Positions 1 to 37,579 of a stretch of 64,000 nucleotides of DNA are shown here, in pieces; the stretch's first letter is position 1; every line of letters starts with the position of its first letter. Where the stretch lies: NCBI GenBank assembly GCA_024235695.1, contig JACKLX010000018.1, forward strand, positions 1 to 64,000, given 5' to 3'. The notes under the pieces are model-generated. The model was not told where the DNA came from. It searched no databases and worked only from the letters and a program-made list of their open reading frames with translations. This stretch comes from Accumulibacter sp. (GTDB lineage: Bacteria > Pseudomonadota > Gammaproteobacteria > Burkholderiales > Rhodocyclaceae). The position numbers and the translations under genes are program-made.

Positions 1-3000
1 AGCCCCCGACATTCGTCGCGCCGGCATCCGACTGGCTGACGATCTGCCAGCTTTCGAGCTGGCCCTGCCTGATCACCGTCGAACGGTCGTCGGCGTTCTC
101 GACGCTCTCCCAGCCGGTCCTGAACAGGTTCCGAGTCGTGCCCGCACCGTCGATGATCGTCAGCGTTGGCGCATCCGCCAGCGGCGTGACGATCAGTCGG
201 ACGGTGGCCACGGCAGACCGCCCCTGGCCGTCGTCGAGGACATAGGTGAAGGAGTCCTCGCCACTCCAGTTGGCATGCGGCGCGTAGATCAGGCGCTGGT
301 CGGCCGCACGGGTGAGAGTGCCATGCGCCGGGGAAGTATCGACGATCAGATCAAGCGTGTCGCCGTCGATGTCGTAGTCATTGCCGAGCAGATCGAGAGC
401 GATGCGACCGTCCTCGGGCAGGGTGGCGGCATCGTCGTTGGCGACCGGCACATCGTTCACCGCGTTGATCGTGATGCTCAGGACGCTCGCCGCGTTCAGC
501 TGGCCATCGCTGACCGTCCAGACGAAGCGGTCGTCGCCATGGAAATCTGCGTCTGGCCGGTAGATAAGCGTGCCGTCGGCGTTACGGACCAGCGTGCCGT
601 GTTGCGGGTCGCCGACGGTGAAGCTCAAGGCGTCGCCATCGACGTCGCTGGCGCTGAACCGAAGGTCGAGCGTGATCAGGCTGTCTTCATCGAGCGTGAC
701 GCGGCGTTCGACGATGGTCGGTGCGTCGTTGACCGGCGTGACGGAGAGCGTGACGACGGCGACGTTCGAATCGCTGCCGTCGTTGCTCAAGCGGTAGGTG
801 AAACGATCGTCGCCGTGCCAGTCGGGCAGCGGGTAGTAGGTGAAGCTGCCGTCGGCATTCGGCGTCACGTCACCGTGCGTCGGAAGATCGACGAGAAGCG
901 GCCAGACGCCAGTGTGATCGGCGCCGAGATCGTTGCCCATTACAGCGAGGATCACCGGGGTGTCTTCAGCGGTGGTCGCTTCGTCGTCGCGGGCCTCGCG
1001 TAGCAAGCCAGCCAACTGGAGCTGGCTGATCGTGATCTGGCTGCTGGTGGCAGCCGCGCCGCGTCCGAAGCCGATCAGGTCGAAAGAGAGGTTCGCCACC
1101 GTTCCGGCGGCGACAGCCGAGAGGTCGACCCGCACCGAGCGGCTGCCGTCCGCATTGCGACGCATTGCGACGCCGCCGGCGAGGTGCTCGCTACCGTCAG
1201 CCTGCAGGTTGAGGATCGCGTCGCTGTCGGCAAGGCCGATACCACCCAGCAGCGACAGACCGGTGCTGGCGTCGATGAGCGCTACCTCGAAGGCATCATC
1301 AGGGGAACCATTGACGTCATCGAGGGCGATATCGCTCAGGGTGAAGGACAGCATGAGGTCGTTGGCGCCGACTACGAAGGCCTGGTTGAGTCGGGTCTGC
1401 GTTGCGGCGCTTTCCCTGAGGGTTGCCGTGCCCTGGTCGAAATACACGTCGCCGGTGACCGACCAACCGACACCACCGGTGAAGGCGGGGTTAGCCAGGG
1501 CTGGATTGGCGACGGTATCGAACTGGATAGTGGCGCTACTGTTCCCCGTCTTCAAAGCGGTTGTGTCCGATGGGCGGAGCCGACCGGCACGCAGGCTGCC
1601 CAGGCTGCGGCTCAGTGGCAATGGCGCGCCGGGTGGCGTATTCGGGTCGTAGGGAACGGGAGCGGCGTCAGCGGAAAAGGTCAGGCCACGCAGGGCGGTG
1701 AGTTCAACGGAGGAGGGTAGCCGCCGGATCCCGGGAAGGAGAGTCGATGCCATGAGGTCGTGGCTGTCGACGGTATGGCCCAGGCCCGCAACATGGCCGT
1801 ACTCGTGCAGGAGGACGGTCAGCAGGTCCATTCGGCCTTCGGCCTCGGAGCCGGGCCTGGCGATCCACTCCAGAGGGTTGCTGGTGGGAAGGAACTCGGT
1901 GTTGTCGGACGGGGTGAGGTCGATGAACCAGCCGTAGCCGGCAGCGGTGGGGGAGAGGGTGATTGTGAAATTTTGCCCTTGCGAATTGGCCTGCGCCAAT
2001 GCGGCAGTCGGTAGATGGGCAAACGAATTTGGCGATCTGACATCATCCCGAAAGTCGAGTTTCATGAGTGAAGAAAGCTCACTGCGAGGAGTCGGCACGG
2101 GCCACCAGTCCGGATCCGGACAATTTGTGCTATATGGGTTAGAAGCCGGACTAGAATAGTAGCTCGAATTCACCTTAATAAAATATACTACTGCAATCTT
2201 GTATCCAGCGATGTCCGCTAAGAAAGCAACCTTATCCTCGCCAGAATAGCCAGGTCTTGGATAGTATCTAATTTCTTTTCCAGGAGACAAGTCGTTGCTT
2301 AAACTGCCGTGCATCGGCGGTTGAAGAATAATAACTTCAGCATTCTCATAGTCTAGGTGCAATAGCTGTGAATGTGAGCCGTCCCAAAAAATATTGTTAG
2401 CCATGTCTCGAGGTGATAATGATGGATACATCAGTTCTGCATTCCCCTCTATTTGCTCACTGGTCGGGCTCAAATAACATACTGCGATGGTCCCGAACAA
2501 CCCCTGATGTTGCACCATCGTTTGATTGGCTTGCATAACAGTTGGAGCTGTTTGTGTTGTTTGTGGCGGTGGGTTGGGTAGGTCCATTAGCGACATCTTC
2601 GGTTCTCCTGAAGGAGCGTTTGCTACACTATTAGAATATCCCGTTGGAGTCGAGCGCTCCCTGGTTGTTGTAACCTGCGACTTGCTTTGTGCTAATAGAT
2701 TCTGTATGAGAGGTGGTTCTACCCCTTGCAGATTTGGCGTTCTTAGGGTGATTCCAAATTTTGTGTTGTACCCTTTTGAGTTGTTGCTTGTGATGCCAAT
2801 AGCTTGGAGCGCAAAACCCATATTTCCAAAGGCGTTTTCGCTGTAGATTTCATTGTTGACTTGGTACCATGTCTGGACACGGGCATTGTCGACACTACCC
2901 TTTACGCCCTGCGCCGTGCGCCTGAAATTCTGTTCATCCGATGCGCTTGCTCGGTCTGTCACGGAGTTAAGGTCGCCGTATACCGGCGCGGCGCCATATC

Positions 3001-6000
3001 GCCAATACCACGCTCCCATACGAGCCGCAAGGTCGCGATCTGTGTCTGGGAGATCAGGATAGCTGACCAAGTCGTAATTAGTACCATAGATCTCATTCAA
3101 GCCAGGGATTCGCTCACCCCCAGCATTGCCTCGCGTGCCGCCATCAGCAGCTCTTTGGTATCCACCCATGCGTGTGATTTGCAGGACTCCTCTTCCACGG
3201 TATCTGTACCCATCACCCGACACTTCGCCGCGATTACCATCAAAGCCGGCGTAAGCATAATTAGCCTGCCTTTCCCCGCGGGAGTTGCCATTGCCCAAGG
3301 TGCCGTCCAAGTATCCATTATATACCGCCATTTGAATCGGGTCGCCTAGATCTAAGCGTCTGAAATTGCCCACTCTTTGAAGCGCCGGATGATTCCATCC
3401 GGTTTGCTCTGTAAGCCAATTTTGGTCCAGGCCAAGCGTCTCGGCACGAACATTCGCCAAGAATGCCGCTACTCTCTTAGGTGTGCTGATGTCGAATGTC
3501 GTCATTGCTTCATTGAGCGGTGCAACCCAAGAAGTCATATTATTTGCCGTTGAATCCATAATCGCAGCCAAGGTCTCGGCAGTGAGTTTCGCGCCAATTC
3601 CAGCATTATTCTTGCCGACCCCGCCCAACAGCAAGTTACTGCCATTCACCATTCCGCCGCCCTGTGTACCGTCGCCAAAAAGTGCTCTTTGAATGGTTCG
3701 TCGTTGTTTCGGCGTGCTGGCGGAACGGATTTGGCCCAAGTTCTCGTCCAAAGATCCATTTCCACCAGTGGCATCCGTACGGACAGACGCATAAACCGCA
3801 AGAAAATCGCGTAATGCTTCTGTCTGATTGTTCGTGCCTTGTGAATTGGATAGCGGTTCTTTCGGGCTGTCAATTCCGTGACGTCGATTGGGATTGTTAA
3901 GAAGGCCGGATAAGGCAACTGCATTGCTGTAATCCCACGAGCCAGTATTCAACGTGCTGCTTATCCCCCCGCGATCGGCTCGCAAGCCAAACAGCCATTC
4001 ATTTCCATCGATTCTCTTTTGGTTTCTCTTTGACACGTAAGCTGTGTTGATTCCCAAGTTGAGCATTACGCCCAACGAGCCAGTTCCGTTAAACCACAGC
4101 GGGTTCGGTCTGCCTTGGGCAGTCGCAGCGGCCTGCGCCGAAACCATGAGATCAAACACCCAACTCGTACCCATGGCCTCGGTTGGCTTCGCCGCCTCGG
4201 TCTTGTTCTCCCAGCCAAGGAGTTTCTGCGATCCCGAGGGAAAGAAGTTAAGCCAGTGCGGTGCGTTGTAGGCGTTAAGCCAAGCCACATCGTTGGTCGA
4301 CAGCTTGATGGGCGCCATTGGCTTCGTGGTCGTCTTGCTTTTTCCGTTGACCGTGATTTTTTCGGTGACGGTGGCGGTATAGTCCGTCTTGCCTTCAACA
4401 ATCTGGTCGAATTGCCTCAGGGCGATGTGCTCTGCGTCGTCGATCGTGCCATTGACCGTAATTTCCCCGGTGTTTACCTTCGATAAGCCAAAGCCGAGGT
4501 ACTTCAAGCGCTGCTCCACGCGCCACACGTCGAGAGGGTCGTTCCGAGCGCCTTTCTGTGCGCTGAGTGTTGCCGTGACTTCGAAGCCGTGATACCCAGG
4601 ATTGCTCAGCGGCCGATCGCCGAAGAAGACGGTGTCAGGCGCTTTCGTGTAGTCGACGACGCGCAGTTTCAGGAGCAGGCTTTTCTCGGGGTTGTTCTTG
4701 TCGAATCCCTTGATCGTAATCGAGATGTCTCCAGGCAGCAGATTTTTCCCCATGCGCAGGCGATCGACGTCGACGGTTGGCGCCAGGAAGATCACGCCGC
4801 TGTTGCTCAAGGTTTTCTTGCCCAGGTCGCTATTGACCGCTTGCAGGCCCTTGTAGGTCTTCTCGCTCGCTGCTTGCACCGAACTGAAACCGTCCTCACG
4901 CTCTGCGGTCAACAGGTCGCCATTACCGTCCCTGACAAGCTGCGCCGCGCCGCTGACCTCGAGGTTGTCCCAATTGACGCTGAGGTCCGTGTCCTTCAGC
5001 TCGGCCAGGGTGCTGGCGTACTGGTCACGGATCAGCTTGAAGAGATCGACGCGGGCGATGTCGCCGTAGTTGAACTCCGGTACCTTGTGATCCGTGTCGG
5101 GCTCGATGGCAGTCTTGAGAGAGGATCCGCCGTCGTCGATCGGCGCCGAGAACGTCACCGAATCCGGTTTGAGCAACTGGCTGCTGGCCATCCCGAATAT
5201 CCATCCCGAAGTCAGCTGACTGCTGACAGCGAGATCATGCTTGACGGGCGTGACTAGTTGCGTCGTGACGCCATTGACGCGCTCGCGGTCGACCGGCAGC
5301 GGTCGTGGCGACGCCTGTCTGGCGAGCGAATTCCTTTCGGCAGCGGCAATCAGCTGTTCCACATCCCATACCAGCAGGCCGGCGGGCGGCGGGGATTGAC
5401 CTATCGTCGGCCAGTAGCGAATGTCGGTCCACAGCGTCTTGCCGGCGTTGGTCACCTGCAAGCGGGAGAAGTTTGCGTCGATGATCGGCGAGGTTGCGCC
5501 GAGGTATTCGGGTGCTGCGCCAAAGGGGTCCTTGACGATACCGATCTTGCCACCCTTTTGTCGGGCAAGCCCCTGCGGGTCGTCAAGGCCGGTGAGCGGA
5601 TCGACGAAATCGAAGAAATAATCGGCAACCAGCGCGTAGTCGATACCCTTGCGGGTAACGATGACCGCGGGTGACTGTGCCCGCTGGATATTCAGCTGGT
5701 AACTGCCATCGAGTGTGCTGACGCCGGACACGGTAGCGGACATCGCGATCTGCCTGAAGACGGGCGCTGCTTTGAAGCGGCCGGTATCGCTCAGTGCGAT
5801 ACTCAGGGTGGCGAGTCCTGCGTTGTGATCCAGGGCGTCGCTGAGCACCAGGCGCAGTGTGTTGTCCTTGATTCCGGCAGACGAAATGAACTGCGGCCCC
5901 TTGCCTTGCTGGCCAGGAAAATCGACATTCAGAAAGGCATCGGCGCCGCTCGTCGCGAGATGGCCGCTTCTCTCGACGAGTTGGTCGAGGTCGAGGATGA

Positions 6001-9000
6001 AGACATGGCCGCCGTCGGGCTGGCTGCGCCCGCTTGAAATGCTCAGTGGCTGTATGCTGGCGGTTACCGCGAGATAGGAATGGACGCCATGGGTGACAGC
6101 CAGGTCGATGTAGCCGTAGGGCGCGTTTCGCCCGCTCACTGCCGGTGGCAGATCGATTTGCTGGACGGCGAGGAAGTTGGCGTCGGTTTCGTCGATGTTG
6201 ACGCGCAGCAGGCGGAAGCGGCCGGCAGGGTCGTAATGACCGCCTTCGGCGACGTAGAGTGACTGTCCGGAGACCGCCAGGCTGCTGACGTTGGCCGTTC
6301 CGACGCTGAAGCTCGCAGCGAGCTTCAGCGTCGCCGTATCGACGACATGAATGTCGCCGTTCATGCCGGCGACGAACATCAGGCGGTTATCGAGGCTGAA
6401 GGCGATCTGGTCGGTCTTGCTGCCGCTGACGATCACGGGATTGCCGCGCGCATCGCGATATTCGATCTCCGTAACCAACTGGTCGTTCCTGAAAATCCGG
6501 ATCGCCGTATCGTGAGTGAGGACGCCGAAATCGGTCTGGCTTTCGATCGTGGTGCCAACGGCGTCACCGTTGGCAAGCCAACGGCTGGCGCCCGCAACGG
6601 CGGGGTCGAGGGTCTGCAGCATGCGCTGAACCGTCAGCACGTGCAGGCCCATGGCAATCTGCTCGGGAACGTCGAGGTCCAGCGTCATGCTGGTGGAGCC
6701 GGCGGCAATGGGTTCGAGATCTACCAGCTTTTGCCACAGGCGCATGCCGTCGTGCCGGTCTTGTCGGTCGTCTTGCCAAGCGGCGGAGCTGGCCTTGCCC
6801 TGCTGGTCCACGCTCAGGTTCTCCGGCGAGATCCAGACCCTGAGTGCCGCGGCCTGTGCCGGCATGCCGGCGGCGATTTCGGGCTGGATCTGCTCCAGGC
6901 TAAGCCGCAGCTTGCCTGACGCCAAGGTCTGGACAGCGGTGATCCGCGGTGAGCTCGCGTCGTGCACGGTTGCCGATCCGGCGCCAGCTGGCGACACGAT
7001 GGTCAAGGTGAGGTCGCCATTGCTGACACTCTTCTGTATTGGCAGCACCTGGTAGACGCCGCCGAAGCTCATGCTGATGGCGAACAGCTCGGACATGCCG
7101 GCCAGAGTGCCGACGATCCCGGCAGCCGCGCCGGCCGCTGACAGCCCGCTGTCGGCGAGACCACCCGAGATCGAGATGGCCAGCGAATTCATCATCAGGG
7201 CGAAAACGTTCACGCCGGAACCCTGCAGCTTTACCGCGCCGGTCTGGCTGTCGACCGTGGTCTTGACGCAAACCAGATCGCCGGACGCATTGACGCCGCC
7301 ATAGGGTGGGCTGGCGGTGCGGGCGACGAACTGTCCGTGGTCATCGAGGCCGACGAAGCCGTTGTCGACGATCCACCACGTGGCCTGCATTGCGCCGCTG
7401 ACGTCGGGCGCCGTAGCGCGACGCAGGAAGAGGACTTCGTCGCCGACCTGGACGCCGGCATCGTCCTGCAACGTGATCGCCAGTTGCACGGGTACGCTGG
7501 TCGCGTTTTCGCCGAGATCGAGGTTGAACGCCGCAAGGGTCTGCAGGATTGCTGGTTCCGGTGCCGCCATTCCCGTTTCGACCGCGAGCGTAGCGAGGCC
7601 AATACGACGTATCGAGACCACCGCATCCCCGGTCAACGCTCCCGCGCCGATCATCACCGTCTCGCCGGTCGCCGCCCGGACGACGCCGCCGTCTTCGGCG
7701 GCGATCGTGATCCCTGGCGGGGTGGCGGTTGCGGGGTCGTCGTCGGTCAGCTGTGCGGCCTGCACGCCGAGACGAATGTCGGTCTGGCCGATGGCCTGTT
7801 GGCTGACGCCGCCGTATCCGTCGACCAGGCTTGCCAGATGAACGATCGACAGCGTGACCTCGCCGGCCCGCAGCGCGGTGATCAGACCCTCGTCGCTGAC
7901 CTTGGCGACGCTCGCGTCGGAAACGAGGTAGCGCGTGCCGCTGTACACCGCCGGTGCGGCCGGGATGAGAACGTCAAAGCTGTTGCCGGTGTCCGGGTCG
8001 ACATAGGTTTCGAGTGCCTCGGGCGTACCGGCGAAGACCGTCTGTCTGGCGGTGTGGATGTCGATCAGCTGCTCGCTGTCGGGGTCGATCCGATGCACCT
8101 TCAACTGTCGCGTGTCGCCGGGTGTCAGAGTGAGCGTGCCCGGATAGACCTCCGGTACGATCGGCACGGCCCGGTCGCTGGCGTAATCGTCCTCGTCCGG
8201 GTCGGCATCGAGGTCGAAGGGCAGGGGCGCTGCCTGCACGTTCAGCGCTGCCGCCGCCTGGATCAAGCGTCCGTCGGTGTCGACGCGGGTGACGACGAGC
8301 AGCGCCGGACCGGCGCTGATGGCGTGGACCAGGTCGCGCGCGTCGTCGACCAGCAGCGGCGTCGGTGCGGTGCCGCCGAGGGCCGCGAGGTCGGCGCTGC
8401 GAAGCGTCAGGTACGCGGCGTCGGTGACGACGACTCCCTGTTCGTCGTCGAAGTCGGCGGTGGCCTGAAAGCGGCTGAACTGGCCGGTCGCCAGCGTCGC
8501 CAGCGGCGCGAGGTGCAACTGCCGCAGCCTGGCGTCGCTGACCTTGATCTTCAGTTCGATGGCGGCGCCAGCGGCGTAGCCGTCGTCGGGCTGGATGGTC
8601 AGCGTCGCTTCGCCGTTGTAGCCCGATTCCGGGACGAAGGTGACGGTCTGACCATCGCCTGCCAGTCTGGCGTTGCCGTGGCTGCTGTCGAGGAGGCGCC
8701 AGAACAGCGGCTCGCCTTCGAGGTCTTCGGCGACCCCCGCCAGCACCGTGTCGGTGGCGAGATCGACGTGCGTGGCGAGCGGAGCAACCGTGCCCGTGGC
8801 CGCGGGCGCCTGGTTTGCCCGAAAGCCGGTATTGGCATAGAGAATCTGGCGGTCGAGGCGGCTGATCTGGCCGTCGCCATCGATGTCGGCGAGCGCATCG
8901 TGCGCGGCGTCGGCTGCCTGCCATGCCTGGCTGTCGGCGCCGTCGACCAGACCATCGTCGTTGAGGTCGCCGGCGACGCTGAGCCGCAGCTCGGCGTTGC

Positions 9001-12000
9001 CGCTGCCGCTGAGGCGAAGCAGCTTGACACCGGCTTCGCTGACGCGCAGCAGCCGCGTCACCCGGCCATTTGCCGTCGCCGTGCCGACGATCTGCGCGCC
9101 TTCGACTTGCAGGTCCGCGGCGGCCGGAAGCGTCGTTTCGAGTGCCAGGATCACCGCGCCGTGGGCGCCTGCACTGCGTGCCGTCGAGGCGATTTCGCTG
9201 TCGCGAATCGTGAACGCCAGCGTGACGCCTTGTCCGGCATTCAGGTCGCCACGCCAGCGGCCGCCGCTGCCCCAGGTCACCACCGCGCCGAGCCGGGCGC
9301 TGGGCGGCTCGCTGACCGGCTGGCCGGCAGCGGTGTAGGCGAGGGGAGTGCCGGGATCGGCACCGTCGAGATGGCGGACCAGGATCAGCCGGCCGGCGCT
9401 GTCGTAGCGGTAAGCGATGGCTACTGCCTGGCCGCCGGCATGGCCAGCACCGGCTTCGGGAGTGGTGATGCGGACAATGCGTCCGGAGCTGTCACGCAGA
9501 AAATCGACGCGCTCGCTGAAGTCGCCGCTGACCGCCGCGATGCCGGCGTCCGAGACCAGCCAGCTCTCGCCGTCCGCGAAAGTGACGCGCTGGATGGCGC
9601 CCGCCGCGTCGAGTGTGTAGCGAGTGCCGTCGGGCGCCGTCAGCGTGTAGGCCGTGGGTACCCACGGCAGACCGCTGATCTGCTCGTAAAGGCGGTCGCC
9701 CTGGCGCTGGACGTTGTCCGGCGTCAGGTGGCCTGCCGTCGCATGGGCCTGCAGCGTCCAGCCCTGGTCGGCGGCGAAGTGCGGGTGCCAGACCTGCGGC
9801 GCCGCGGCTTCGTTGCCGAGGCGTTCGCTTTGCAGGACGAGGGTGAAGGAGAGATTGCTCAGGCCGGCGTCGCCGTCGCCCGGGTCGGTCGGGGCGCTCA
9901 GCCAGACGCGGGCGCCGTCGGACCATGGCGCCGTGGCGCCGTTCTCGAGGGTGGCTGGCTGGTCGCTGCCGAGGCGGCTGGCGAGCAGTGGCAGCGACCA
10001 GTTGCCGAAGTCCTGGCCGGTGCTGTCCGGGGCGCCGGCGTTCGCCTCGCGCCACTGCCGAGTGAGTGCCAGGCGATGTCCGGCAAGGGTCACGCTGGCG
10101 TCGGTTTGCCGCTCGCTGGCGAAGGTCTTGTCGGGCGTATCGATGACGATCGTGGCGGCGATATCGCTGCTGCGGCCGGCGAGATCCCAGGCGGTCAGGC
10201 GCAGCCGGTAGATGCCATTGTCGAACTGGCGCGGGTCGAGGTCGGCCAGCGCGATCGTCTGTGCGACCGTGCTCGCCGGGAAGTCGGCGTCGGCAAGGGT
10301 TTGCCAGGGCCCGCCGGCGGTTGGCGCGATCTGCAGGCGCCAGCCCATCAACTGCGCTTCGCCGAGCTGCGCGGCGAGCGTCGTGCGGGTCACGACCTCG
10401 AGCGGTCGATCGCCGGCACCAGCCAGCGTGCCGCTCCAGGCGAGTTGTGGGGCGACGGTGTCGGTCGGGTCCTTGACGCGCAGCGAATGGAGGCGGGTGC
10501 TGACGAAGCCGTCGCGGTCGCTGGCGGTGACCCGCAGGTCGATCAGTCCCGGGCGCGTCGGCAGCAGCTTCAGCCGCCCGGCGGCGTCGAGCGCAAGGCT
10601 TTGCCAGGCGTTCCCTTCACCTTCGCGCATCTCGACAGCCAGCCGGGCGATGCCGCTCCAGGCTTCGGCGCGGACCGTGGCGACGACGGTCTGGCCGGGG
10701 AGCGCCGCTGCGCTGGGGGTGGTCGATACGACGATCTTCGGCGCGTTGTCGGCGGCGTCGGCGACGACGCGCAGTTCGAAGGTGGCGGAGTGGGTGCCAT
10801 TACCGGCGTGGCCGTCGCTGACCGAGGCGGTGACGGTGAAATCGCCAAGCTGCCCGGGTCCGGGTGTCCAGTTCAGGCGCTGACTGCGAACGTCATAGGT
10901 GGCACCTTCGGGAAGACCGCTGAAGCTGACGGCCAGCGCTGCGGTTTGCGCCACCCCGTCGGGATCGAAGACCGTGATGCCATCACCGGCAATGCCGAAC
11001 AGCACCGGGATGCTCAGGCTGTCACCGATGACCACCGCGTGCTTGCTGGCGCTGACCTGCGGCTGGCGATTGACGTCGAAGACGCGCACCTGCACGGTCT
11101 GCGTACTGGGCGCGCTGGCGCCACTGCCGCTGCCTTGGCGATCGCTGGCGCGGAAGCTGAAGGCGTAGGACTGGCTGTCGGCAACGCTGTTGTCGACGGT
11201 GTTGCGGTCGGGTGTCCATTCGAAACGGCCGCTGGCGGCGTTGAAGGCGACGCCGGCCGGCGTCGTCGGATCGTACACCAGGCTCAGCCGAACGGCGTCG
11301 CGGTCGGCGTCGGTAGCGACGACGGTGAAGGCCAGCGTCTCGCCCTCATCGATCAGTTGCAGCGGGATCGGCAGGATGCGCGGCGGCTGGTTGAGGTTGG
11401 CGACGGCAATCTCGATCGGGCGGCTGAACTCGGCCGTGCCGTCGCTGGCGGTGAGCGTCAGGCGCCACAGTCCCGGCGCCCGCGTGACGTCATTGCCGTC
11501 CTGCGCGGCGAAGGCGTCCGGCGTCCAGTGGAAAACGGCATGATCGTCGTCCGGCATGAAAACCATGCCACGCGGCAGCTGGTCGACCCGCCAGTCGAGG
11601 CGGTCGGCATCGCCGTCGCGGGCAAAGATTTCGAAATCGAGGGGCTCGCCTTCGCTGGCGTCGATGCGCAAGGCGTTGGCCCCACTATCGGCGACCGACT
11701 GGCCGTTGACCCGCAGGCCGAGCACTTCCGGCGCGGCGTTGTCGGCACGGACGACGATGCGCAGCGTCTGCCGGCTGACGTTGGCTATCGGCTGGTCGGG
11801 ACGGATGAAACCGGCACCCTGCGGCGGCAGGCCACTGTCGGTGACGATCAGCTCGACGTCGCGGCTACCGACGTCGGCAGCGGTCGGCGTCCAGTGCAGC
11901 GTCGCGTGTCCGTACTGCGCGGTCGGCGTCAGGTCGGCGCCCAGGGGCAGGCCGCCGGTCGTCCAGTACAGCGGATCCTGATCGAGATCGCTGGCGATCA

Positions 12001-24000: not shown

Positions 24001-27000
24001 GAATGAGCTGGCCGGTATCGAGATTGCTGACCTTGATCGACTCCATCAAAACGGCGTCGGTCGCGCTGTCGCCTTCGTTGGCGTCGTCCCAGAAGACCTT
24101 GAGTACGCCACCGGCCGCGATCGGCGTCGCGCCGGCCGGTTCGACGCGCAGCTTCCTGACCAACAGGTCGGGCCCGGTGACGCGGAATATCTCGGCCGTA
24201 TTGTTGCTCTCGGCAGTGCCGCCGGGGTTGGCTTCGGCGAGTTGTGAGGCGGCGTCGACGGTGACCTGCAGCGAAAAACGACCGGCTGCCGCGACGCCCT
24301 GTGGCCAGAGGAACAGGGCAGTGCCCGAGCGGCTGGCTCCGGCAGCCAGGGTCGCGCCGCCGGGCAGGTCGATCGTCGTCACGATACTGCCGGTGTCGAG
24401 ATTGCGCAGTTCCAGGCGCTCGCTCCACGCCTCTCGGACCGGGCTGTTGCCAAGGTTGCGGGTGAGCCAGCTGGCGCTGACAGACTGGCCGGGCTGCAAC
24501 GGACCGTCGGGAGTCAGCGTCAGTCCGTCTACCACCAGGTCGACGTGCGGCGCGAGGTCGATGGTCAGCAGTGCCTGCAACTGGTTGTTGGCCCGGCTGC
24601 GGTCGGCGAGCGCCAGGTCGGCGTCGGTGACGACGAGCAGTTGATAAGCGCCGATGGAGTCGATCGGCACCTGCAGGTCAGCGCTGGCGTCATAGCTCGC
24701 ACCGGCCGCCAGCGGCCCGCTGTGCACGATCTCGGCAAGCTCCTGTTGCAGGCCCTTGCCGATCAGGTAGACGCGGTCTGTCCAGCTGCCTCGCGCCACG
24801 GCGCCGTCATTGCGAACGCTCCACTCGACGTGCATCGGCGAGCCCGACTGGACCCGACCGGGGTAGTCGACGCGCTCGATCGCCAGGTCGCTGCGCGCGA
24901 CACGAACGCTCGCCGCCGAGACGGCGCGGTTGTTGTTTGCGACTGGCTCGGCAATCGCGTCGTCGGCGTCGACCATCACCAGCCAGCGGAAATCGCCTTC
25001 GACGGCGCTGGCGGGCACGGTGAACTGCAGGCTGCGCGCCGTGCTGCCACCCGCCGTGAGCGGCGCGGCGTTGCGCACGCTCGCCACCTCGAGCAGCCCG
25101 GCACTGCCCTGGTCGAGATAGATGCGGTCTTGCCAGGGCGTGGTGGCGTCGAGGGTGCCCAGGTTGCGGGTAATGTAGCTGACGGTGCCGCCCTCGCCGG
25201 GTTGCACCGCGGTCGGTCCGAAAACGTCGTCGACCGCGAGATCGGCTGCCGCTGCCGGATCGATCCGCAGTCGCGCCTGGCTGGCGGCACTGTTGTTGGC
25301 GCGGCGGCCGCTCTCGGAGAGTCGGCCTTCGGCGTCGGCAATGACGATCGCGAAGTAGTCGCCGGCGAGCACCGCCGGCAGCGTCACGTCGGCTTCGGCA
25401 AGATAGCTCTGGCCCGGCTGCAGCACGCCGGCGTGCGTCACGGCAGCGGCGACGATCAGGTCGCCGGCGTCGGCAATGGCGTCCAGCGAGAGCACGATGC
25501 GATCGTTCCACAGCGCCAGGTCGCTGGTCGTCTCGCCGTCGTTGCGGACCAGCCAGCCGACGCGGATCGTTTCGCCGCCGCGCGCGGTAGCGGGTACCGT
25601 GATCTGCTCGACCGTCAGGTCGGCGGCGGCGGCGAGCAGTTCGAAGCCAGTGGCGGTGGCGTTGTCGTTGCGGCTATCCGGCTCGATCACGTTGTCGCCG
25701 CTGTCGGCGCGAACGCCGAGGAAATACCGCCCCGGTGCAAGTGGCGGCAGCGAGATGCTGGCGCTGTGGGTGTAGCTCTCGCCGCTCCTGAGGCCGCCGG
25801 CATGTCCGAGATTGCCGACGACGATGTCGTCGGCGTTACCGACGAGTGCGTCGCGAGTGATGACCAGTTGGTCGTTCCACGTGGCGCTGGTGTCAAGCGG
25901 ACCGTGGTTGGTGACGCGCCAGTCGACGGTCAGCGTGTCGCCGGCGAGTACGCTGGCCGGCAGGGCGAACAGCTCGACCCGCAGGTCGGCATAGACGGCG
26001 CCCGCCGATACCGCATGGACGCTGGCGCCGTTGTTGCTCTCCGCGTCGCCGGCGGCGTTGGTCTCGAACAGCGAGCCGAATCCTTCTCGATCCTGGTCGA
26101 CGGTCACGGCGATTTCGATATGGCCGGTGCCGGCGATGCCGTCGGGCAGGCGAAAGCTGAAGCTGCGCTGGCGGTAGTCGCCGGCCCGGATCGGACCGTT
26201 GGACCGGCCTGCCTCGAACGTCAGCGGATCGTAGCGCTGGCTGGTATCGAGCAAGACCAGCGAACGATCGAGATTGCTGACCACGATGTGCTCGTCGAAA
26301 GCGGTCGCTGTCGCGCTGGCGCCCGGGTTCCAGTCTTCCCAGCGGATCGTCACGGTATCTCCGGCGGCCATGGCGGTGGTGTCAACTCGCAGGTTCCTGA
26401 CCTGCAGGTCAGGGCCGACGACGAGGAACGCCTCGGCTGGATGAAAGCTCTCGTCGGCGCTGGCCGGCGTGTCGCCGGCAATGACCCGCAGCGCGAAGCG
26501 GCCGGTAGCGGCAGCGCCGCCCGGCCAGCTGATCTTTGCACTGCGCGTGCGACGGCTGTCGACCGCCAGCGCTCCGTCGCCCAGGCGATCGTTCAGGACG
26601 ATGCTGGCGACCACTACCCGGGTCGACACGTTGCGCACTTCGAGGCGCTCGCTCCAGCCGGCGGCGGCAGCCTGCGTTCCGCGATTGACCGTTTCCCAGC
26701 TCACGGTGACCGCAGCGCCGGGATCGAAAGTCGCCGCCGGGTCAAGGGCCAGCTTTTCGACGTGAAGTTCGCTGTAGGGTGCGCGAACGACGTCGATGTC
26801 GGCGGCCATGGCGTTGTTGCGTTCGTTGGCGCCATCGACACTGCTTTCGCGGACAACGTCATCGGCGTCGGCCATGACGATGACGCGCAAGCGGCCGGCA
26901 GCGCTGCCACCGGCGGGCAGGGTGAGGAGGTGACTGCGGTGCTGCAAGTCACCGGCGGCGATCTCGCCACTACCGCCAGCCGCCTGGTCATGGGCAAGCA

Positions 27001-30000
27001 AAACGTCGGTGACGACCTGGCCGCTGTCGAGATTGCGGATGACGATCCGATCGTGCCAATTGCCGGCGCTGGGCAGCGCGCCACGATTCTCGATCTGCCA
27101 GTCAATGCGCAGTGTCTGGCCGGTCTGCAGGCCAGCCGTCGGGGTCAGGGCGAGATTGCTGACGACGAGGTCAGGCGCCGGCCCGCTGAGGAAGGTATCG
27201 AAGACGACGGCCACTGTCGGTGGCAGCCTGATCAGCTTGAAAGAAACCAGCGCCGGGTCGCCGCTGGCAGCGTCGAGACTGTCGAGGAGCAGGGTGTAGC
27301 TGCCGCTGAGCGATAAGGTCGCCGTTTCCTGGTCGCTGCCGACGAAGCTGTGGCGATAGATGGGCTGACCGGACTGCGCGTCGTGATGATCGAAGGCGAC
27401 GCTCGCCAAACCCATTGGCGTTGGCCCGAACAGCGAGCGTCCCAGCGGGTCGAGCAGCTGCCACCCTGGCACGCTGCGGACAGCGCCAGAGGTCGAGGTG
27501 TCGCCGACGAGTTGAAGTCCGTCGAGGAAGTAGCGCTCACCGGCAAGGGCGTCGAAGCGGAAGACCTGCGCGCCGCCGGCGGGCGTCAGGCGAGTACTTA
27601 ACGGCGCGCCCGGCGCAATGCTCGTCGCGCCGAGCGGATCGACGACGCGAAACGACGCCGTTTCGGTCTGGCTGCCGGCGTTGTCGATCGCCAGCGTGTA
27701 ATCGCCGGCCGCCAAACGGCCGGCAAAATCGCCGCCGGTGGACCCTTGCCGCTTCATCGCTTGCGCAAAGACGCTATCGCCCGTCGGCCCGTCGAGTCGC
27801 CAGCGGAGCCCGCTGCTCGCGACCAGACTGTCGAAGACCAGCACCGTCGGCTGATCGAGGTGCAGCGCATAACGTGCCTGCTCGCCCACCGCCAGTGGCG
27901 CGACGATCGTGGCGTTGCGAAGCAGTTCCTGGGCGGCAAAGGCGCTGGTCGGCGGTGTGTGCAGAGTGAAGCGGTAGCTCGCGGCGCCTTGCCGGCCGCC
28001 GTTGTCGATCAGCAGCAGGTAGTCGCCGGCGGTCAGCGGCAGCGGCGCGCCATCGCTGCGGAGGTCGCCAGCCGCCACTTCGACGCCGTAAGGCGAGAGC
28101 AGTCGCCAGTGCAGACCGCTGGCCGAAGCCGGGTCGCCGGCGAAGACGAAGCTGACGCCGTCGGTGACGCTGAAGTGGTAGGCCGCCATGCCACTGTCAC
28201 CACTGCCGCTGGCGATGGAACCGTTGATGGCCGTTCCCGGCGTCACCCTGGTGGCGGCGCTGAGGTCATGCAGCACGAAGCTCAGCGGCCGCGCGTTCGC
28301 CCGGCCGTAGGCATCGCGCAGTTCGAGGGTGTACGTTGCTGGCGTGGGCAGGACGATTGCCTGGCGGGTGTCGCCGAAGTAGTCGGCGGCGTGGACACGC
28401 CAGGCCGCCGCGTCCTGTCCGGCCCGCACTTCGACGTGCGCGTCGAAGTCGGCGCTCAGCGGCGTCAGCCAGAGCGCGCCGGGTGCCGGCGCCGCGAACC
28501 GGTACGAGGCGCGGCCGTGGCCGTCGAGCGCGGTCGTGATCACGCGCTCGAGTGCCAGCAGTGGCGCGGTGATCGCGCTGGTCGACAGGCGGAAGTCGTA
28601 GCTGCGCGTCGAAGCGCCGCCAGTGCTGCCGGTGTCGTCATCAAGGAGCAGGGTGTAGCTGCCGCTGCGGGGCAGCGCCGCGACCTGACCCGAGCCCTCG
28701 CCGTTGGCGATCGTCTGGCCGAACTCGTCGACCAGCCACCAGCGGCCGTCGTTGCCGGAATTCCCGTCGAGCGTCAGTGCGTCACCGGCTTCGGCGTGAA
28801 AGGCGAACAGCGTCGCCTCGCCTGCAACGCGTTGGCCGCTCGTCGGGACGCCCAGGTTCAGGGCTTGCGCCTGCGCCAGATCGAGCAGCCGCAAGTTCAA
28901 CTCGTCGAGGCCGCCGGTACTGGACATGGCCCTTTCCGCGTCGATTTCGAGCAGATAGCTGCCGGCCGGCAGTTCGACGATCGGCAGGTCGCTGGCCGCC
29001 GTGCCGCTGCCCGGCAAGCGGCCCTCAGCAAGCGACTGCCCGGCGCGCGAGATTCGCCAGGCGAAGTCGCCGCCGCTGGCGGAACTGCCGCGGTCGATCA
29101 GGACGCGCGTTGCCGTCGGCACGCTGAACTGGTACGACGCGTGTGTGCTGTTGGCAAAGGCTTCGCTACGAAGTCGTTGGCCGAGGGTGACGTCCTGCGG
29201 CATCTGCACGGCGAAGCGGAAGGTCGCCGGCCCGGCCAGCGCGGACGTCGGTGTGGTTTCAAGGGCCAGAAAATAGGCGCCGCTGGTCGTCAGCATCGGC
29301 AGACGGGCCGGATCGGTCAGCGCAGCCGACGCGACCCAGTTGCCGTCGCGATCGAAAAGCTGCCACCAGCCGTCCAGGCCGCCCGGATCGATCGGCTGAT
29401 AGTCGAGGCGCGTTCCGGCGACGAGGTCGGCGCGGTAGAGGAGCGTTTCGCCGGGCCGCAGGACGCTCGCGACCTCGGTGTTCAAAGCCACCGTCGGGGC
29501 AGCGGCAAGGTCCAGAAAGCGCAGCGCGTAAGGAGTGCCCGCGGTTGCCGCCTGCTGCGCGTGAACTTCGATGCGATACTCGCCGGCGGCAAGTTCGAAC
29601 GGTTCGCCCGCGTACGCTTGCGCCGAGTACGCGGTGATCCGCCGGAGCAGTTCACTGCCGCGAAAGAGCAGCACTTGCGCCGGCGCGTCGAGCTCCATCA
29701 GGTCGAGGACGAGGCGCTTGCTTTCGGTCAGTGTCAGCTGGTAGGCATCATCCGGGCCGCTCGCGGCAAGTAGCCCGCGAATTTCGGCACCGAGACTAAT
29801 CGGCTGGCCCGCCGGCTCGACGAACAGCGTCGAGGGGCCGAAGTGGTCCTGACCGCGAACGAAATACCAGCGGCCGGTCAGCGAAGGAACGAAGCGAACG
29901 ACGTCGCTGCCGGCAAGCCGTTGCGCAAACGAGAAATCGGGCCGGTAGATCGACCACTCGCCGTACCGATTGGCCTGCAACAGGTACTCGTCGCCAGCCG

Positions 30001-33000
30001 CCAGATCGACCTGGTAGAGCAGGGCGCCGGAGTCACCGAAGCTCTTCCCGGCGTCTACCTGTTGAGCATCGTCGCTGCCGTCGATGCGGAAAGTCATGCT
30101 GTTGCCCGATCCGTAATGGACCGAGACTTCGAGCGTGTAGGTGCCAGCTGGCAGAGTCAGCGGCGTGGTGGCCGTTTCGAAGTCATTCCAGTAGCCGTGG
30201 TCGCCGGTCAGCATTCCGGCGGCGTCGCGCAGCAGCCAGTGCGCCCACCACGGCGACGCTCCGCCGCCGGTGCGGCCGCCAAGAACAGCCAGGCCAGGCT
30301 CGGTCAGCGTGAAGCGATAGGCTCGAGGCGCGCCGGAAAGCGTGTCACCGACGTCGGTGCCGAGGGCGATCGGCGTGCTGGCGACGGTCGGCCGACCCTG
30401 CTGCGCGAGCAGCGTCGCGGCGATCGCGTAGTCCACCGGTGCGTCAAGCCAGCGTTCCGCGAACACGGCCACGGTGTAGATTCCCGATTCGTCGAGCGTG
30501 CGACGCAAGGGGCCGCCAGCGACCGAATCGCCGCTGAGCAGTTGCCCGAAGGGGTCGAAGAGGTACAGGGCGACCTCATCGCCATCAAAGTCGCTGCCGC
30601 CAGCGCTGCCACCGGCCGCACTGCCGACCTCGATGGCGACGGTGTCGCCGGCGCTTGCCGACAGGCGATAGACCTGCGTCAGGTGGTCGCCGGGCGCCAG
30701 CGTTGCGTCGACCGGCACGGCGAGCGTCAGGCCGGGCTGGTCGATACGCACGGCGTTCAACAGGCGAAAGCTGAAGTCGACCGGCGAATCGCCGCCGCTT
30801 GGCGTCGACGAGGCGTAAAGGCGCAAGCCGTACTCGCCGGGCCGCAGGTCCACCAGGGGGGCATCCCGGTCGCCGAGGTAGGAGTTGGCCAGCTGCCGGC
30901 CCGAGGCGTCGACGAGCTGATAATCGACGTCCCAGACCTGCGAGAGCGCGTCGACCAGGATCTGGCTACGCTCGCTGACCGAGAACGCCAGGCGGCTCTC
31001 GTAAGCGGACGATGCGTCGAGGCTGACCGCGATCGATTCGTCGAGCTTTACCGTGCGCACGGCCTGTCCGCCGCTGGCGACCAGTTCGATGCGCGCGGAC
31101 AGCGGCGGACTGCCGGCGAGCACCGTCGGTCGCTTGAGTTCGAGCGTGTAGGGCCGCTCGTAGAGCCGTGTCTGCAGTTGCGTCCGGCTTGCGGTGGCGC
31201 TACTGCTCCCCTGTTCGACCAGCGTCCGGTCGGCGTCAAAGAGCAGCCACCTGATCTCCTCGCCGAGGTCGGTGTCGATTTCGAGCTGCGGCCGTGTTCC
31301 CGCCAGCGAGTGATCGAGGCGAAAGGCCCTGAGCTGCTCGCCGGCGGCAAAGCCGAGCATCGTTTCGCCTGCGGCGAGTGTTGGCGCCTGACCGAGATCG
31401 AGCAGCAGGAAGCTGAACGCCGCGTCGCCGGGGCCGTCCGAGGACACGTCGAAAGTGTAGCGGCCACTGTCGACCAAGGCGAGGTAGGGGAATTCAGCCT
31501 CTCGGTCGCTGCCGTCAGACGCCAGCTCGGCAAGGCTGATCCAGTCGTCGCTGTCGGGCGGCGCGCCGAGTGGCCGGAGTCGCCACTTGATCCGGGTGTC
31601 CGAGCCCTGGTCGTGGATCTGCAGCGACATGCCGACGGCTACGTCGAGCAAATGGCTGCGGATCGGTTCGGCGTCGACCAGCCGGCCGGCGACGATGTCG
31701 CCGACAAGCACCGTCATTGGCGACCAATCGACGTCGAAGTCGATAGCTCCAGGCGTGTCATCGCCACCCGACACCACCAGGAAATGCTGTCCGACGGCGA
31801 GGTCGCGCAGCTCGAACAAGCGCTGGCCAGCGCTGTTGTTGCCGCCGTCGATCGGCTTGCCGACAGCGTCATACAGCGCCCACTGCACGGCCGAGCCACC
31901 GGCGACATCGAACTGCAGGCGGTAGCTGCCGGCTGTGCCGACGTCGTGGCGGTAGACCACGACGTCGCGACCGTTCCCGAGTTGTCCGTGCCGAGTGCTC
32001 GCCGTCAGCGCGCTGGCTGTCTCGCCGGCGAGCAGCCGCAGCGCGAACTCGGCGTTGTCGGCCGTTGCTTCGATGGTCAGCTCGTAGTCGCCGGCGCGAA
32101 CCAGCCAATCGTAGGCGTCCGGGTTGGCTGATCGCTGAACGTCGGGCCACCAGCCGGCCGTCGCGGCGATCGTCGAGTCGCCGCCAGCTGGCAGCAGACG
32201 CCAGCGAACATCGCGTGATCCGACATCGTGGATCCAGGCGTGCGCCGGCAGCGGCTCGCTGAACGGCGCAGTGATGCGGTAGCTGACGCGATCGCCGGCG
32301 ACGGCCAACGCCGCGATCAGCGTCTCACCCGGCCGTGCCTGCAAGGCGGTGGACTGGCGGGCGGTCAACGCAAAGCTCAACAGCGCGCTGGCACTGCTCG
32401 GGCCATCGACCACCAGCAGACGCTCGCCGCCGTTGCCGCCGCTTGCCTCGGCCGGGTCGGCGAGATCGACCACCGGCAGGGCGTATTCGCCGAGGGCCGC
32501 GCCGTTCGGATCGAAAACGGCGAGCACGCCGCGCTCGCCGTTGCTGGCGACGGCGTCGATGCTCCGGCGGCCGCCAGCTTGCGTGGCGGCGACTCGGACA
32601 AGGCTGGCGCCGGCGATCCGCTCGAGTGTGCCGAAGCTTTGCTGGTCGAGCGGCAGCGTCGTTGCGGTCGCGAAGTCGAGCAAGCGGAAGGCGTAGGCGC
32701 CCAGTTCGTCGGGCCGGTCGGCTTGCACCGCGAGGGTGTAGGCACCGGCATCGAGAACCAGCAGCGTGTTGCCGTCGCAGCTGCCCGAACTGATCGGCGA
32801 GCGATCGGCGCCGCGCAGTGTCCAGCGGTTGCCGGCGCCGGTGAGTCCGTCGACAAGCAGGCGGGTCGGCCGGTCGAGTGAAAATCGCCACTCGTCGGCG
32901 AGGCCGGTGACTTGCGTGCGGCCGCGCGCCTCGTCGCCGATCGGCAGTGGCGAGACGCGGGGAGTGGCCAGCGTCGCCGAATAGTTCAGCGTCAGCGGCA

Positions 33001-36000
33001 GGTCGCTGTCACCCCTGCCGACGACAATCAACAGGTGAGCGCCGTCGCGTTCGAGAGTGATGCCGATCGGCGACGCCGCGACCGCAGCGGCGCTCAGCAG
33101 GCGTCGCGGATCGTCGGCGGCGATGATCTGTACCGACGCCATGCCACCGGCAAGACTCTCGAAGTCGAGTTCCAGACGGTCGCCGACGTGGCCGTCGACG
33201 GCGAACAGCCGGATGCTGTTGCCGGGGTCGAGGAGCAGCGAGCGTGCCGCCCCGAGCGGCAGCGCTTCGGCATGGTGCGTGTCGAGCAGGCGAAAGCGGA
33301 AGTCGCCGGTCGCTGCGAAATCCGGCGTGACGCGCAGGCGATAGCTGCCGGCGGCGTCGAGGAGAATCGGCCTGACGATGCCGGCGCCGCCAAAGACGTC
33401 CTCCTTGCCGAGCAGGCCGGTCGGCCCAACGAGTTGCCAGCTCAAATCGTCGCGGTCGGTCAGCGCGTCGAAAACGATCGTCGTCGGTGAGTCGATCGAG
33501 AAGCTGTATTCGCGAACCTGGCCTGGCTGGTCGATACGGTCGGCGACGTCGGCGACCGTGGCAAGCCCGACATTCAGGGTGATCGCCTGGCGGTGAATCA
33601 GCAGGCGCCGAACGACGAACTCGTAGCTGTCGCTGGCCGCGTCGATGTGGCGGCCGTCGATCACCAGGCTGTAGTTGCCGGCCGGCAGCGCGAAGGAATC
33701 GCTGCCCCGCGACATGGTGCCGCTGGCGATCGCTCGGCCGAAGCTGTCCAGCAAGCGCCAGTCGCCGTCGCGCGTCGGCGACGCGGTCGGCACGAACAGC
33801 AACTCGCTGTCCTCGTCAAGCTCGAATGAATACGCCTGCGCTCGGCTTGCCGGGGCAAGCGTCGCGGCGACGACGGTCTCGAAGGCGAGCGCCGGCAGGG
33901 TGGCGACGTCGAGGAGTGCGAAGCTGAAGTCGCCGCTTGCCAGCGCCTGGCTGGCGACGGTGAACCAGTAGTTGCCTGCCGGCAGCGCCAGCTGCTGCGA
34001 GTGCGCGTTTGCGAAGGCCTGTGGCGGTCCCTCGAGGCCGCGTGGGCCGCTGAGCGTCCAGAAAAAATCGTCTGGCCTGGCAGCGTCACCGGTATCGACC
34101 AGCAACGAGGTCGGGGCGGCCAGCGTTAAGCCGTAGCTGACCGACTCTCCGGGCCGTTCGATCCGGCCGACGACGTCCTCGTCCAGTGTCAGTGGCAGCG
34201 TTCGCGAAGTCGCTAGCGCGAAAGCGAAGGCGATCTGGCGCGGCGTGTTGTCGGGCTGGCCGCCGCCGAAATCCGGAAATACCGCCAGCAGGTACTCGCC
34301 GCTGACCGGCAGCGTCGTTTCATTGGCGTCCTCGCCGAGTGTCGCGATGCGGCGGCCGTAGGGATCCCACAACTGCCACGACAGGCGCTGGTTGACGCCG
34401 CCGGCGCGAGCGAGTTTGACCAGTACGCCGCGATCGCCGGCGCTGGCCTCGAAACGGTAGAGGCGGGTCTCGCCAGCAGCGATCGTTTCCTCGACCGTGC
34501 TTGCCGAGCGCAGGTCGGTCGCCGCATTGGCGGCGTGGGCAGCATCGGCATTGAGCACGCGGAAGCGGTAATCGGCGCCGTCCTGGCTCGCGGTGTCGAG
34601 GGTCAGCAGATAGCGGCCGGGCGGCAGGCGAAAGACCTGGCCGGTGTCGCCGCGGAAGGGACGCCATCCTTGCACCGTGCCGAGCGGACCGGTGAGCATC
34701 CAGCGCGATTCGGGACCGCTCAGCGCATCGAAGACGAGGGTCGCCGCCTGATCGAGCGTGAACGCGTACTCGGCGACGCTGCCCGGGCCGGCGGCGCTGG
34801 CGCTGATCGGACGGTTGAAGTCGAGCGCCGAGCTGACCTTCTTCGGCTCGGTCAAGGTGAAGCTGACGTTCGATCGGCCGTTGGCGCCGTCGGCACCATC
34901 GTTGAGCAGCGTATGGCTGCCCGTCGTGGCGATCTCGAAACGCGTTGTCAGGAACTGGCCCGGGACAATCGAAGCGACCGAGACCTGCCGCCCAAAGGGG
35001 TCGAACAGGCGCCAGACGCCACCTGCCGAATCTGCGGCCTGCAGCAGCAGCGCGCTGCCGGCGCTGGCGGCGATGCGGTAGCCGTTCGTCGCCGCGGTCG
35101 GCGAACGCGTCGTGTTCACCATCTGGCCGCGGGCAATTTCCGGAAAACTCGCGGCATCGAGCAGGCGCAGGGCGTAGGCGCCGCCGCCGAAAACGTTTGC
35201 CCCCGGTGCCGCGCCTTCGACCGTCAAGGCGTAGTCGCCCGGCGGCAGGGTCAACAGCGGCTTGCGTGCGGCGCCGTCGTTGCTGTACAGCGTCTGCCGA
35301 TCGACTTCGCTGCCGCGTGGCCCGAGCAAGGACCAGACAGCGCTACTGGCGCCGGCCTGGCTGTCGATCACCAGCTGGCTTTCGCGGGCCAGCGTAAAGC
35401 GATAGCTGCGACTGGCAGCGCTGCCGGGCAGCAGGCCGGCGACGACCGCGCCGAGCGGCAAGGCTTCGCCGATGGGCAGGCTGGCAGGTGTCAGGTGGCC
35501 AACGACATCGAGCTGCAGTTCGTAGCTGATCGGTGTCAGCGCGTCGGCATATCCTTCGATCAGCAGGGTGTAGGCGCCGTCGGCGGTCAGCAGCCTGACC
35601 TCCGGGACCGAGCCCTGCACGGGCAGCGCCGTGGCACCGGCACCACTCACGTCGCGGCCGAAGCGATCGACCAGACGCCAGCTTGCGCCGCCACTGGCGC
35701 CGGTGACACCCTTGCCCTGCAGCGCGACCTGATCGCCAGCGGTGGCATTGAGGCGGTAGGCGTGTGTGCTGTTGCCGGGCTTAAGGGTACCGCTGACGCT
35801 GGTACCCAGGGACAGCGCCGGTGCCGCCGCGAGGTCGAGCAGGCGGAAGGCAAAATCGCCGGTGGCGCTGGCCACGCCTCGCACGCCCAGCCGATAGGCG
35901 CCCGCCGGCAGCGTCAATACGCTGAAGCCGGCGTTGCCGTCGCTGTGGTCGAAGCGCCGGTCGACGATCTCGCGGCCGCGCGGTCCGGTCAGTGACCAGA

Positions 36001-37579: not shown

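Follow-up and report, generated by a model that had tools for sequence, protein, structure and literature searches.

A giant LEPR-XLL gene of Accumulibacter sp. with a variable GH19 endolysin-type module, and the PqqD-M50/HlyD/SecA-like gene set found with such genes

In this study, a stretch of 64,000 nucleotides (the window) from an Accumulibacter sp. genome (3.83 Mb, 32 contigs, 83.7% complete) was analyzed. On the minus strand, a stop-free frame of 12,528 codons ran from an ATG at position 37585 to base 2; its 5' end was complete and its 3' end was cut by the contig end. A second in-frame ATG (MAM...) was located at 37579, 6 bases after the first. The protein as read had 12,528 residues, a mass of 1.32 MDa, a pI of 4.6, and four cysteines. 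Since base 1 of the window is the first base of contig C18, the C-terminus of the giant is missing and its stop codon is unreadable here. The missing end was estimated at about 450–700 codons from the alignment to two orthologs (G017 and G011), and the complete giant probably has about 13,000 residues. In 100 first-order Markov surrogates, the longest stop-free run was 623 aa, with a mean of 440. The GC contents of the three codon positions in the giant frame were 0.685, 0.509, and 0.822. The highest 18-residue hydropathy mean within the first 120 residues was 1.48, at residue 65, behind the LEPR motif. The upstream genes that were scanned were ordinary (MFS, NnrS, pseudouridine synthase, Mem_trans, and nitronate monooxygenase), and a putative TCA-cycle block was located further upstream.

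Sixty relatives were searched, of which 27 belong to the genus of the window. Residues 6651–7250 of the giant were matched in 18 of 61 genomes. Relatives of a 770-aa piece were found at 16 loci in a named genome collection; 15 were from Accumulibacter, with one isolate contributing two, and the 16th, with 38% identity, was from Dyella sp. OK004. Stretches from nine relatives and from contig C6 of the same genome were read, and eight orthologous loci were compared. Two orthologs, both from Candidatus Accumulibacter, were open throughout, with 12,769 (G017:C14) and 12,896 codons (G022:C55) from stop to stop. The orthologs of G025 (10,117) and G018 (10,295) were open but shorter, most of the PPC part being unmatched, and the G005 frame ran past the end of its stretch. 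The other three of the eight (G011, G015, and G001) were each split into two frames, which were left unmended. The giant showed a pN of 0.234 and a pS of 0.484 against G017 over 12,339 aligned codons, and 0.237 and 0.484 against G022 over 12,064. In both comparisons pN was about half of pS, which indicates purifying selection.

The three split loci could point to an assembly or annotation artefact in which several smaller genes were fused. The two full-length intact orthologs, the conserved order along the gene, and the purifying selection argue against this explanation, which is largely refuted already and scarcely credible. Because two orthologs are intact, the sequence comparison identifies the frame as one real gene. 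The original prediction of a single gene longer than 37.5 kb, encoding more than 12,500 residues, was thereby confirmed.

The features of the window are listed in Table 1. With the LEPR-XLL model NF012209, whose cut-off is 17 bits, one search scored 26.0 and another 33.7 bits. The giant thus has an N-terminal motif over the curated cut-off on a very long, repeat-rich protein, as in the LEPR-XLL family. PF04151 matched the first 2,500 residues with a whole-piece E of 6.6e-12, with no individual stretch passing alone, and PF07705 had five and six stretches above threshold in two overlapping pieces of the giant. Matrixin PF00413 scored 26.6 bits against a cut-off of 24, and the zinc motif HExxHxxGxxH was present. 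The sequence had been read beforehand as a series of consecutive known folds that included domains of a wall- and protein-cutting kind. Family and structure searches agreed with this for the repeats and for the C-terminal hydrolase-type domains, namely the GH19 endolysin fold and the matrixin. The propellers of that reading were weakly supported, by a PF25174 match with E = 2.3e-5 that scored 24 bits where the cut-off is 305. The type I cellulosomal dockerin model reached 18.9 bits on the giant against a cut-off of 22.9. Internal cohesin-dockerin knitting was considered and rejected: cohesin was strong only in C6:4230-8228 and weak in locus L059, and the dockerin of the giant was below the cut-off.

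Table 1. Features of the giant gene in the window (positions in the 64,000-nucleotide stretch)
Feature	Position	Residues	Strand	Remark
LEPR-XLL motif (NF012209)	37355..37420	56-77	minus	behind basic N-terminus
PPC-like beta-sandwich repeats	27236..37333	~85-3450	minus	PF04151; limits by eye
CARDB repeats	18206..27193	~3465-6460	minus	PF07705; limits by eye
Ig-like He_PIG / Big_9 repeats	10736..13648	~7980-8950	minus	limits by eye
YD-repeat (RHS-like) match	9560..9640	9316-9342	minus	20.7 bits, cut-off 15.8; no stretch passes alone
Dockerin-like calcium-loop pair	8840..8974	9538-9582	minus	PF00404 E 0.0017, below cut-off
Weak beta-propeller match	6239..6487	10367-10449	minus	PF25174
Low-GC3 variable module	1886..4288	~11100-11900	minus	same place in orthologs
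GH19 endolysin-type domain	2876..3589	~11333-11570	minus	motif Glu and GRG kept
Matrixin-type metalloprotease core	1739..1852	11912-11949	minus	HEYGHVAGLGH
Tandem-95 / cadherin-like repeats	176..988	~12200-12470	minus	limits by eye

The GH19 block was compared with known structures. A sequence search of the structure database returned the endolysins 8p8e (E 2.9e-12), 9eoi (3.9e-8), and 4ok7 (5.1e-8); the Pfam scan of the giant gave no GH19 match. The predicted model of residues 10981–11620 was poor overall, with a mean pLDDT of 50.7, but had model residues 351–600 at 50–90 and mostly above 60. Three PDB chains matched this model at E ≤ 0.001, all of them endolysins, and the TM-score of 9eoi was 0.76 by target. 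By predicted model and sequence matches, the block has an endolysin-type fold. The domain was matched by 464 phage records, all with less than 60% identity. Besides the window, 13 loci were examined for the GRG motif, which 11 of them kept, and the Glu and GRG columns were invariant in an alignment of 12 GH19-type rows. With its motifs kept, the domain is probably a phage-type wall-cutting enzyme. Fold and motifs are those of the phage GH19 endolysins (8p8e, 9eoi, 4ok7), whereas the domain of the window lies inside a chain some 13,000 residues long. Two loci, L059 (Ca. A. meliphilus) and L068 (Dyella), were without the GH19 motif and had instead His/Asp motifs that by eye resemble a LAS-type peptidase. 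For a LAS (M15/M74-like) peptidase in this slot, neither Pfam nor PDB gave a match, and the model pLDDT was 34. The idea that an ancestral peptidase of this type decayed once GH19 had been gained likewise lacked Pfam, PDB, and model support and was kept as a lead only.

The composition and divergence of the module were also investigated. GC3 was 0.82 over the whole giant gene and 0.42–0.65 in the variable module; between residues 11,100 and 11,900 it was about 0.5, down from about 0.85. The dip recurred at the corresponding place in the examined orthologs and was less strong in G025 and G018. Among the window, G017, and G022, protein identity fell from 69–75% to 41–48% in the block and was 48–60% after it. 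The pS among these three was 0.73–0.77 in the block against 0.38–0.56 elsewhere; against G025 and G018 it was 0.65 in the block and 0.48–0.55 elsewhere. The observed/randomised difference at fourfold sites of identical residues was 0.88–0.93 in the block and 0.63–0.85 elsewhere. By this measure the block is the most saturated part even after control for base composition, though less strikingly. The raised pS is partly due to base composition, so synonymous divergence was discarded as a proof of block replacement. The GH19 block was probably replaced by recombination, and the variable module suggests an exchangeable enzyme slot.

The ends of the giants share a short C-terminal tail, IDW...W..FL, in which I-D, F, and W were invariant in an alignment of 14 tails. 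In eight genomes, 17 tail matches (E ≤ 1e-8) and 18 LEPR motifs over the cut-off were found, all in the same five genomes, with tail and LEPR counts of 4 and 5, 3 and 3, 3 and 3, 4 and 4, and 3 and 3. Neither mark was found in the remaining three of the eight. The query alignment itself included seven of these 17 tails, whose matches are therefore built in; the other ten lay outside it. LEPR motif and tail stood together without interruption on ten frames of the five genomes, which also counts against the fusion of smaller genes. The remaining tail and LEPR counts agree in number only, with broken frames and contig ends, and two tails and two LEPR motifs of G022 were not on one frame. Among the 61 genomes, the tail was found at E ≤ 0.01 in at least 16 of 24 LEPR-positive relatives, and all tail-bearing genomes were LEPR-positive among the matches listed.

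The genome of the window contained four long LEPR giants and pieces of another, which together measured about 152 kb, or about 4% of the assembly. Of two long giant frames on contig C6, one had 12,187 codons and the other, which was interrupted close to its end, 9,505. Contig C24 had one of 12,593 codons, and on contig C4 a frame of 115 codons contained a LEPR motif. Contig C6 began with an orphan giant end in two frames (C6:1-3759 and 4182-8228) with a tail at 8016; its best relatives were giants of G016, with 64% and 54% identity. The orphan, which may belong to the window giant or to another one, was left unassigned, since its cadherin stretch would add about 2,600 codons against the 450–700 predicted by the orthologs. 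No exact overlap of at least 20 bases was found between the window end and the first 400 bases of the orphan end.

Between the two giants of C6 were a HlyD+GAF gene (621 aa) and a PqqD+M50 gene (715 aa), the HlyD-like arm of the latter protein being a weak match. Together with a short SecA-like ATPase, and often a second HlyD (HlyD2), HlyD-GAF and PqqD-M50-HlyD form a gene set whose distribution was investigated. The set of this genome is on a different contig from the window giant. In the 61 genomes, the strong matches had best E values ≤ 1.9e-160 for PqqD-M50, ≤ 1.0e-87 for HlyD-GAF, and ≤ 2.4e-138 for the SecA-like protein. A SecA-like gene cut by a contig end (G023) was counted; weak PqqD-M50 matches in LEPR-negative G007, G048, and G051, a weak HlyD in G007, and an 899-codon SecA in G054 were excluded. 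All three genes occurred in the same 22 genomes, which were all among the 24 LEPR-positive ones, while none of the 37 LEPR-negative genomes was included (Fisher p 1.2e-14, genomes of one genus not being independent). Outside the genus, the set was present in 4 of 4 LEPR-positive and 0 of 29 LEPR-negative genomes (Fisher p 2.4e-5). Two LEPR-positive genomes without the set, one in 820 contigs (G012) and one with LEPR in a 235-aa frame (G019), count against the set being the exporter. In G010, which has no LEPR, a SecA-like relic with two stops remained.

The association was also investigated in a class-wide sample of 377 genomes at least 95% complete, with the genome of the window kept apart; 29 had LEPR at E ≤ 0.001. 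PqqD-M50 was found at E ≤ 1e-40 in 25 of the 29 LEPR-positive and 19 of the 348 LEPR-negative genomes, and at E ≤ 1e-100 in 21 and 8, respectively. It was absent in four LEPR-positive genomes, and four more had distant matches only. In 13 of the 21, PqqD-M50 and LEPR were on one contig, with the set at most about 12 kb from the LEPR frame; in the other eight they were on different contigs. The SecA-like protein was found at E ≤ 1e-124 in 21 of the 377 genomes (16 LEPR-positive and 5 LEPR-negative, with four proteins of about 900 codons left out), all of which also had PqqD-M50 at E ≤ 1e-100. Seven LEPR-negative loci with strong PqqD-M50 were read; four had all four genes, and no LEPR-type start was found in frames of at least 900 aa at these seven.

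Gene order was read in 26 stretches with the set or part of it, which were chosen mostly for a LEPR gene on the contig and are therefore no measure of linkage. All four genes were present in 16, and in 14 of these the order was HlyD-GAF, PqqD-M50, SecA-like, and HlyD2 on one strand; the exceptions were a different order in G030 and HlyD2 on the opposite strand in G046. The SecA-like gene was missing at that place in G123, G303, G226, and G331 and was found elsewhere in the first two. In G002 and G020, the LEPR gene comes after HlyD2. In the genome of the window, a giant stands between PqqD-M50 and the SecA-like gene, and a duplicated PqqD-M50 end adjoins the latter. The distances of three set proteins correlated at 0.96 over 24 loci, which is due in part to shared ancestry.

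Besides a long SecA at C5:149871, this genome had the SecA-like gene at C6:85591-87381. In the tree, nine long SecAs were separated from 25 SecA-like proteins with a support of 1.000. Two SecA-like proteins were scanned; DEAD, preprotein, and P-loop domains were present, and the wing/scaffold model was unmatched. SecA2 models on the SecA-like protein of a relative (L086) stayed at 475 against 930 bits (TIGR03714) and 565 against 1085 bits (TIGR04397), and L085 was also below.

PqqD-type domains bind leader peptides, and PqqD-M50 resembles the RiPP intramembrane proteases, at E = 1.7e-43 and below the cut-off (149 bits against 300 for NF041824). The set might then mature or export a small RiPP-like peptide and stand near the giants by chance or through shared regulation, which would suit its presence in some genomes without detected LEPR. 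To our knowledge, a SecA motor would be unusual for peptide export. In addition, a LEPR motif was within the stretch in 11 of the 26, nine by pattern plus G002 and G020, though the stretches were partly chosen for LEPR. A peptide as the substrate is thus very unlikely.

Gram-negative giant adhesins usually use type I secretion, and the giant could be an adhesin of this kind, similar to LapA or SiiE, exported by an unlinked ABC/HlyD/TolC system, with the PqqD-M50/SecA set as a neighbour that has another job. The HlyD-type adaptors of the set would fit, as would the published Vibrio LEPR giant, which has RTX domains according to the available text of its description (PMC10868602). RTX nonapeptides numbered 0 in the window protein, whose C-terminus is missing, and 0 in two complete orthologs; among 19 long frames including that of the window, 16 had none and three had one each. 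Ten selected neighbouring frames, six upstream in the window and four behind the G017 ortholog, contained no secretion gene, one of the ten matching nothing. The SecA/PqqD set, in turn, tracks LEPR across the class. These results make ordinary type I secretion unlikely and turn against it as the export route first proposed for this protein.

A secreted, surface- or matrix-bound LEPR-XLL giant with an enzyme slot, exported by a dedicated SecA/PqqD-M50/HlyD machine and acting as scaffold and carrier of cutting enzymes, is the reading we consider fairly likely. The dedicated SecA-driven route is inferred because the set co-occurs with LEPR genes and many giants share the tail. Beta-sandwich repeats would make up most of a long acidic stalk of about 11,000 residues, almost without cysteine. 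Near its far end would be the exchangeable slot, here with a phage-type GH19 lysozyme, followed by the matrixin-type protease, the cadherin-like repeats, and, by analogy and beyond the contig end, the conserved tail. LEPR-XLL and the tail would serve as targeting signals, and the membrane protein PqqD-M50-HlyD may recognise one of them through its PqqD-like domain. The short SecA-like ATPase would push the chain through the inner membrane, and the HlyD-type adaptors would bridge to a postulated outer-membrane channel. Outside the cell, the giant may scaffold the granule matrix, and its enzymes may cut the walls of neighbouring cells or their matrix. A possible secreted matrix scaffold was part of the original prediction and would fit the domain content.

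A wider proposal, which we put forward tentatively, is an as yet undescribed pathway of Gram-negatives that takes LEPR-XLL giants as its substrates. In it, a short second SecA would be the motor, PqqD-M50-HlyD would read LEPR and perhaps cut behind it, and HlyD adaptors would span the periplasm. In Accumulibacter, it would deliver megadalton stalks, whose slot would have been re-loaded with phage-type lysozymes by recombination. Type I secretion is the main known way by which Gram-negative bacteria bring proteins of at least 10,000 residues through both membranes. If the SecA-based set follows LEPR across the class, it would be a testable second answer to this problem. LEPR is not tied to one exporter, because RTX domains occur in the published LEPR giant of Vibrio in the available text (PMC10868602).

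The outside function, whether matrix scaffold, antagonism, or both, was considered from the domain content and the biology of granule-forming Accumulibacter, a main phosphate-accumulating organism in wastewater plants. The giant could be mainly a weapon of predation or antagonism, with the stalk exposing its neighbours to a wall hydrolase and a protease. The phage-type GH19 in a fast-changing slot is consistent with this, and Omnitrophota giants are proposed to act in predation in the accessible part of PMC10066038. Repeat domains make up most of the length of the window giant, which argues against a role mainly as a weapon. Accumulibacter is a granule-forming commoner and is not known as a predator, and a weapon in place of a scaffold is rather unlikely. 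Giant genes of predatory bacteria are also the subject of a preprint. In Accumulibacter, such giants could help to build granules or act in antagonism.

Giants as such are already known from Omnitrophota (PMC10066038), a huge-protein survey (PMC11573180), and lactic acid bacteria (PMC12863079), as far as the available parts of these papers go. The open-licence literature yielded two papers that mention LEPR-XLL, no paper on Accumulibacter giant proteins, and none joining PqqD, M50/HlyD, and SecA, which is weak evidence of absence; the abstract, passages, and section 3.3 of an Accumulibacter secretome paper (PMC12019908) named no such giants. NF012209 (LEPR-8K) proteins are likewise very long, rich in repeats, and marked by LEPR-XLL at the N-terminus, whereas the model is a 24-position motif, with exporter, tail, and enzyme slot outside it. 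The sole published description found of a LEPR protein, that from Vibrio (PMC10868602), differs in its RTX and serralysin domains, in the text available.

LapA, SiiE, and MpAFP are giant adhesins with type I secretion, huge Ig-like repeat stalks, and a role in adhesion or biofilm. The stalk of the window giant is of the same kind, but the giant lacks RTX, and the associated set has a SecA-like ATPase and PqqD-M50 rather than an ABC exporter. In the accessory Sec system (SecA2/SecY2, serine-rich repeat adhesins), a second SecA is likewise encoded near a large adhesin gene, according to the available part of PMC12863079. The system here differs in being Gram-negative, in its SecA-like protein of about 670 aa without a wing/scaffold match, and in its HlyD and PqqD-M50 partners. 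The accessible text of PMC10066038 describes giant ORFs of Omnitrophota (e.g., 39,678 aa) as surface proteins proposed for attachment or predation, poorly conserved and with few annotated domains, whereas the LEPR giants are conserved within the genus and have assignable domains. Apilactobacillus kunkeei also has several giants per genome (Giant1–5), at up to 6% there against about 4% of the assembly here; unlike the LEPR giants, they are Gram-positive, with helical repeats in Giant1–3 and a cluster without nearby transport genes (PMC12863079, available parts). Within Accumulibacter, the variable GH19 slot could serve as a natural experiment in how giants acquire enzymes.

The end of a related giant in Dyella sp. 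OK004 contained a matrixin domain, cadherin repeats and a similar C-terminal tail, and their order was conserved. It is possible that the giant has passed between lineages as distant as Dyella sp. OK004 and Accumulibacter. The SecA-like protein of Accumulibacter genome G002 (locus L082) clustered with that of another genus, G030 (locus L070), with a support of 0.976; other Accumulibacter copies fell outside this group. On this sequence comparison, the G002 and G030 proteins represent a second version of the gene set, which may have moved. Genome G010, which carried a SecA-like relic, had no LEPR matches, and the system has apparently been lost there.

Features located in the compared loci
Feature	Location	Genome or context	Remarks
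Giant end	L068:2-17956	Dyella sp. OK004	Related to window family, 38% identity
SecA-like gene relic	G010:C1:2223591-2224133 (within L113)	One-contig Accumulibacter genome	Two stops
SapC-family gene	L088:150-1004 (-)		PF07277, E 4.5e-67
End of another giant	L014:4182-8228	Start of own contig C6	Big_9-type and cohesin stretches
Extra copy of PqqD-M50 C-terminal piece	L018:4996-5376	Own C6, ~85,000	Adjoins SecA-like gene
LEPR motif in 115-codon frame	L094	Start of own contig C4	Near contig end
Response regulator, GGDEF/EAL domains	L082:3878-5686		Close to gene set
Response regulator, counterpart of L082 one	L070:7716-9542		Close to gene set

In the window's own genome, the PqqD-M50 duplicate gave the impression that the gene set had been split by the insertion of a giant gene. 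The LEPR frame on C4 adjoined a stretch resembling a transposase helper and is possibly the start of an interrupted giant. The giant end on C6 had seven stretches of Big_9 type, along with two that matched cohesin (PF00963, E 9.5e-15). This cohesin, together with dockerin-like pieces in the giant family, hints at calcium-dependent knitting together of giants.

A SapC-family gene repeatedly adjoined giants or the gene set (L088, L072, L073, L078 and L085), the last four copies being assigned by similarity to that of L088. Its product is a possible additional component. The response regulators, whose GGDEF/EAL domains were tested in one of the two genomes (L082), suggest cyclic-di-GMP control.
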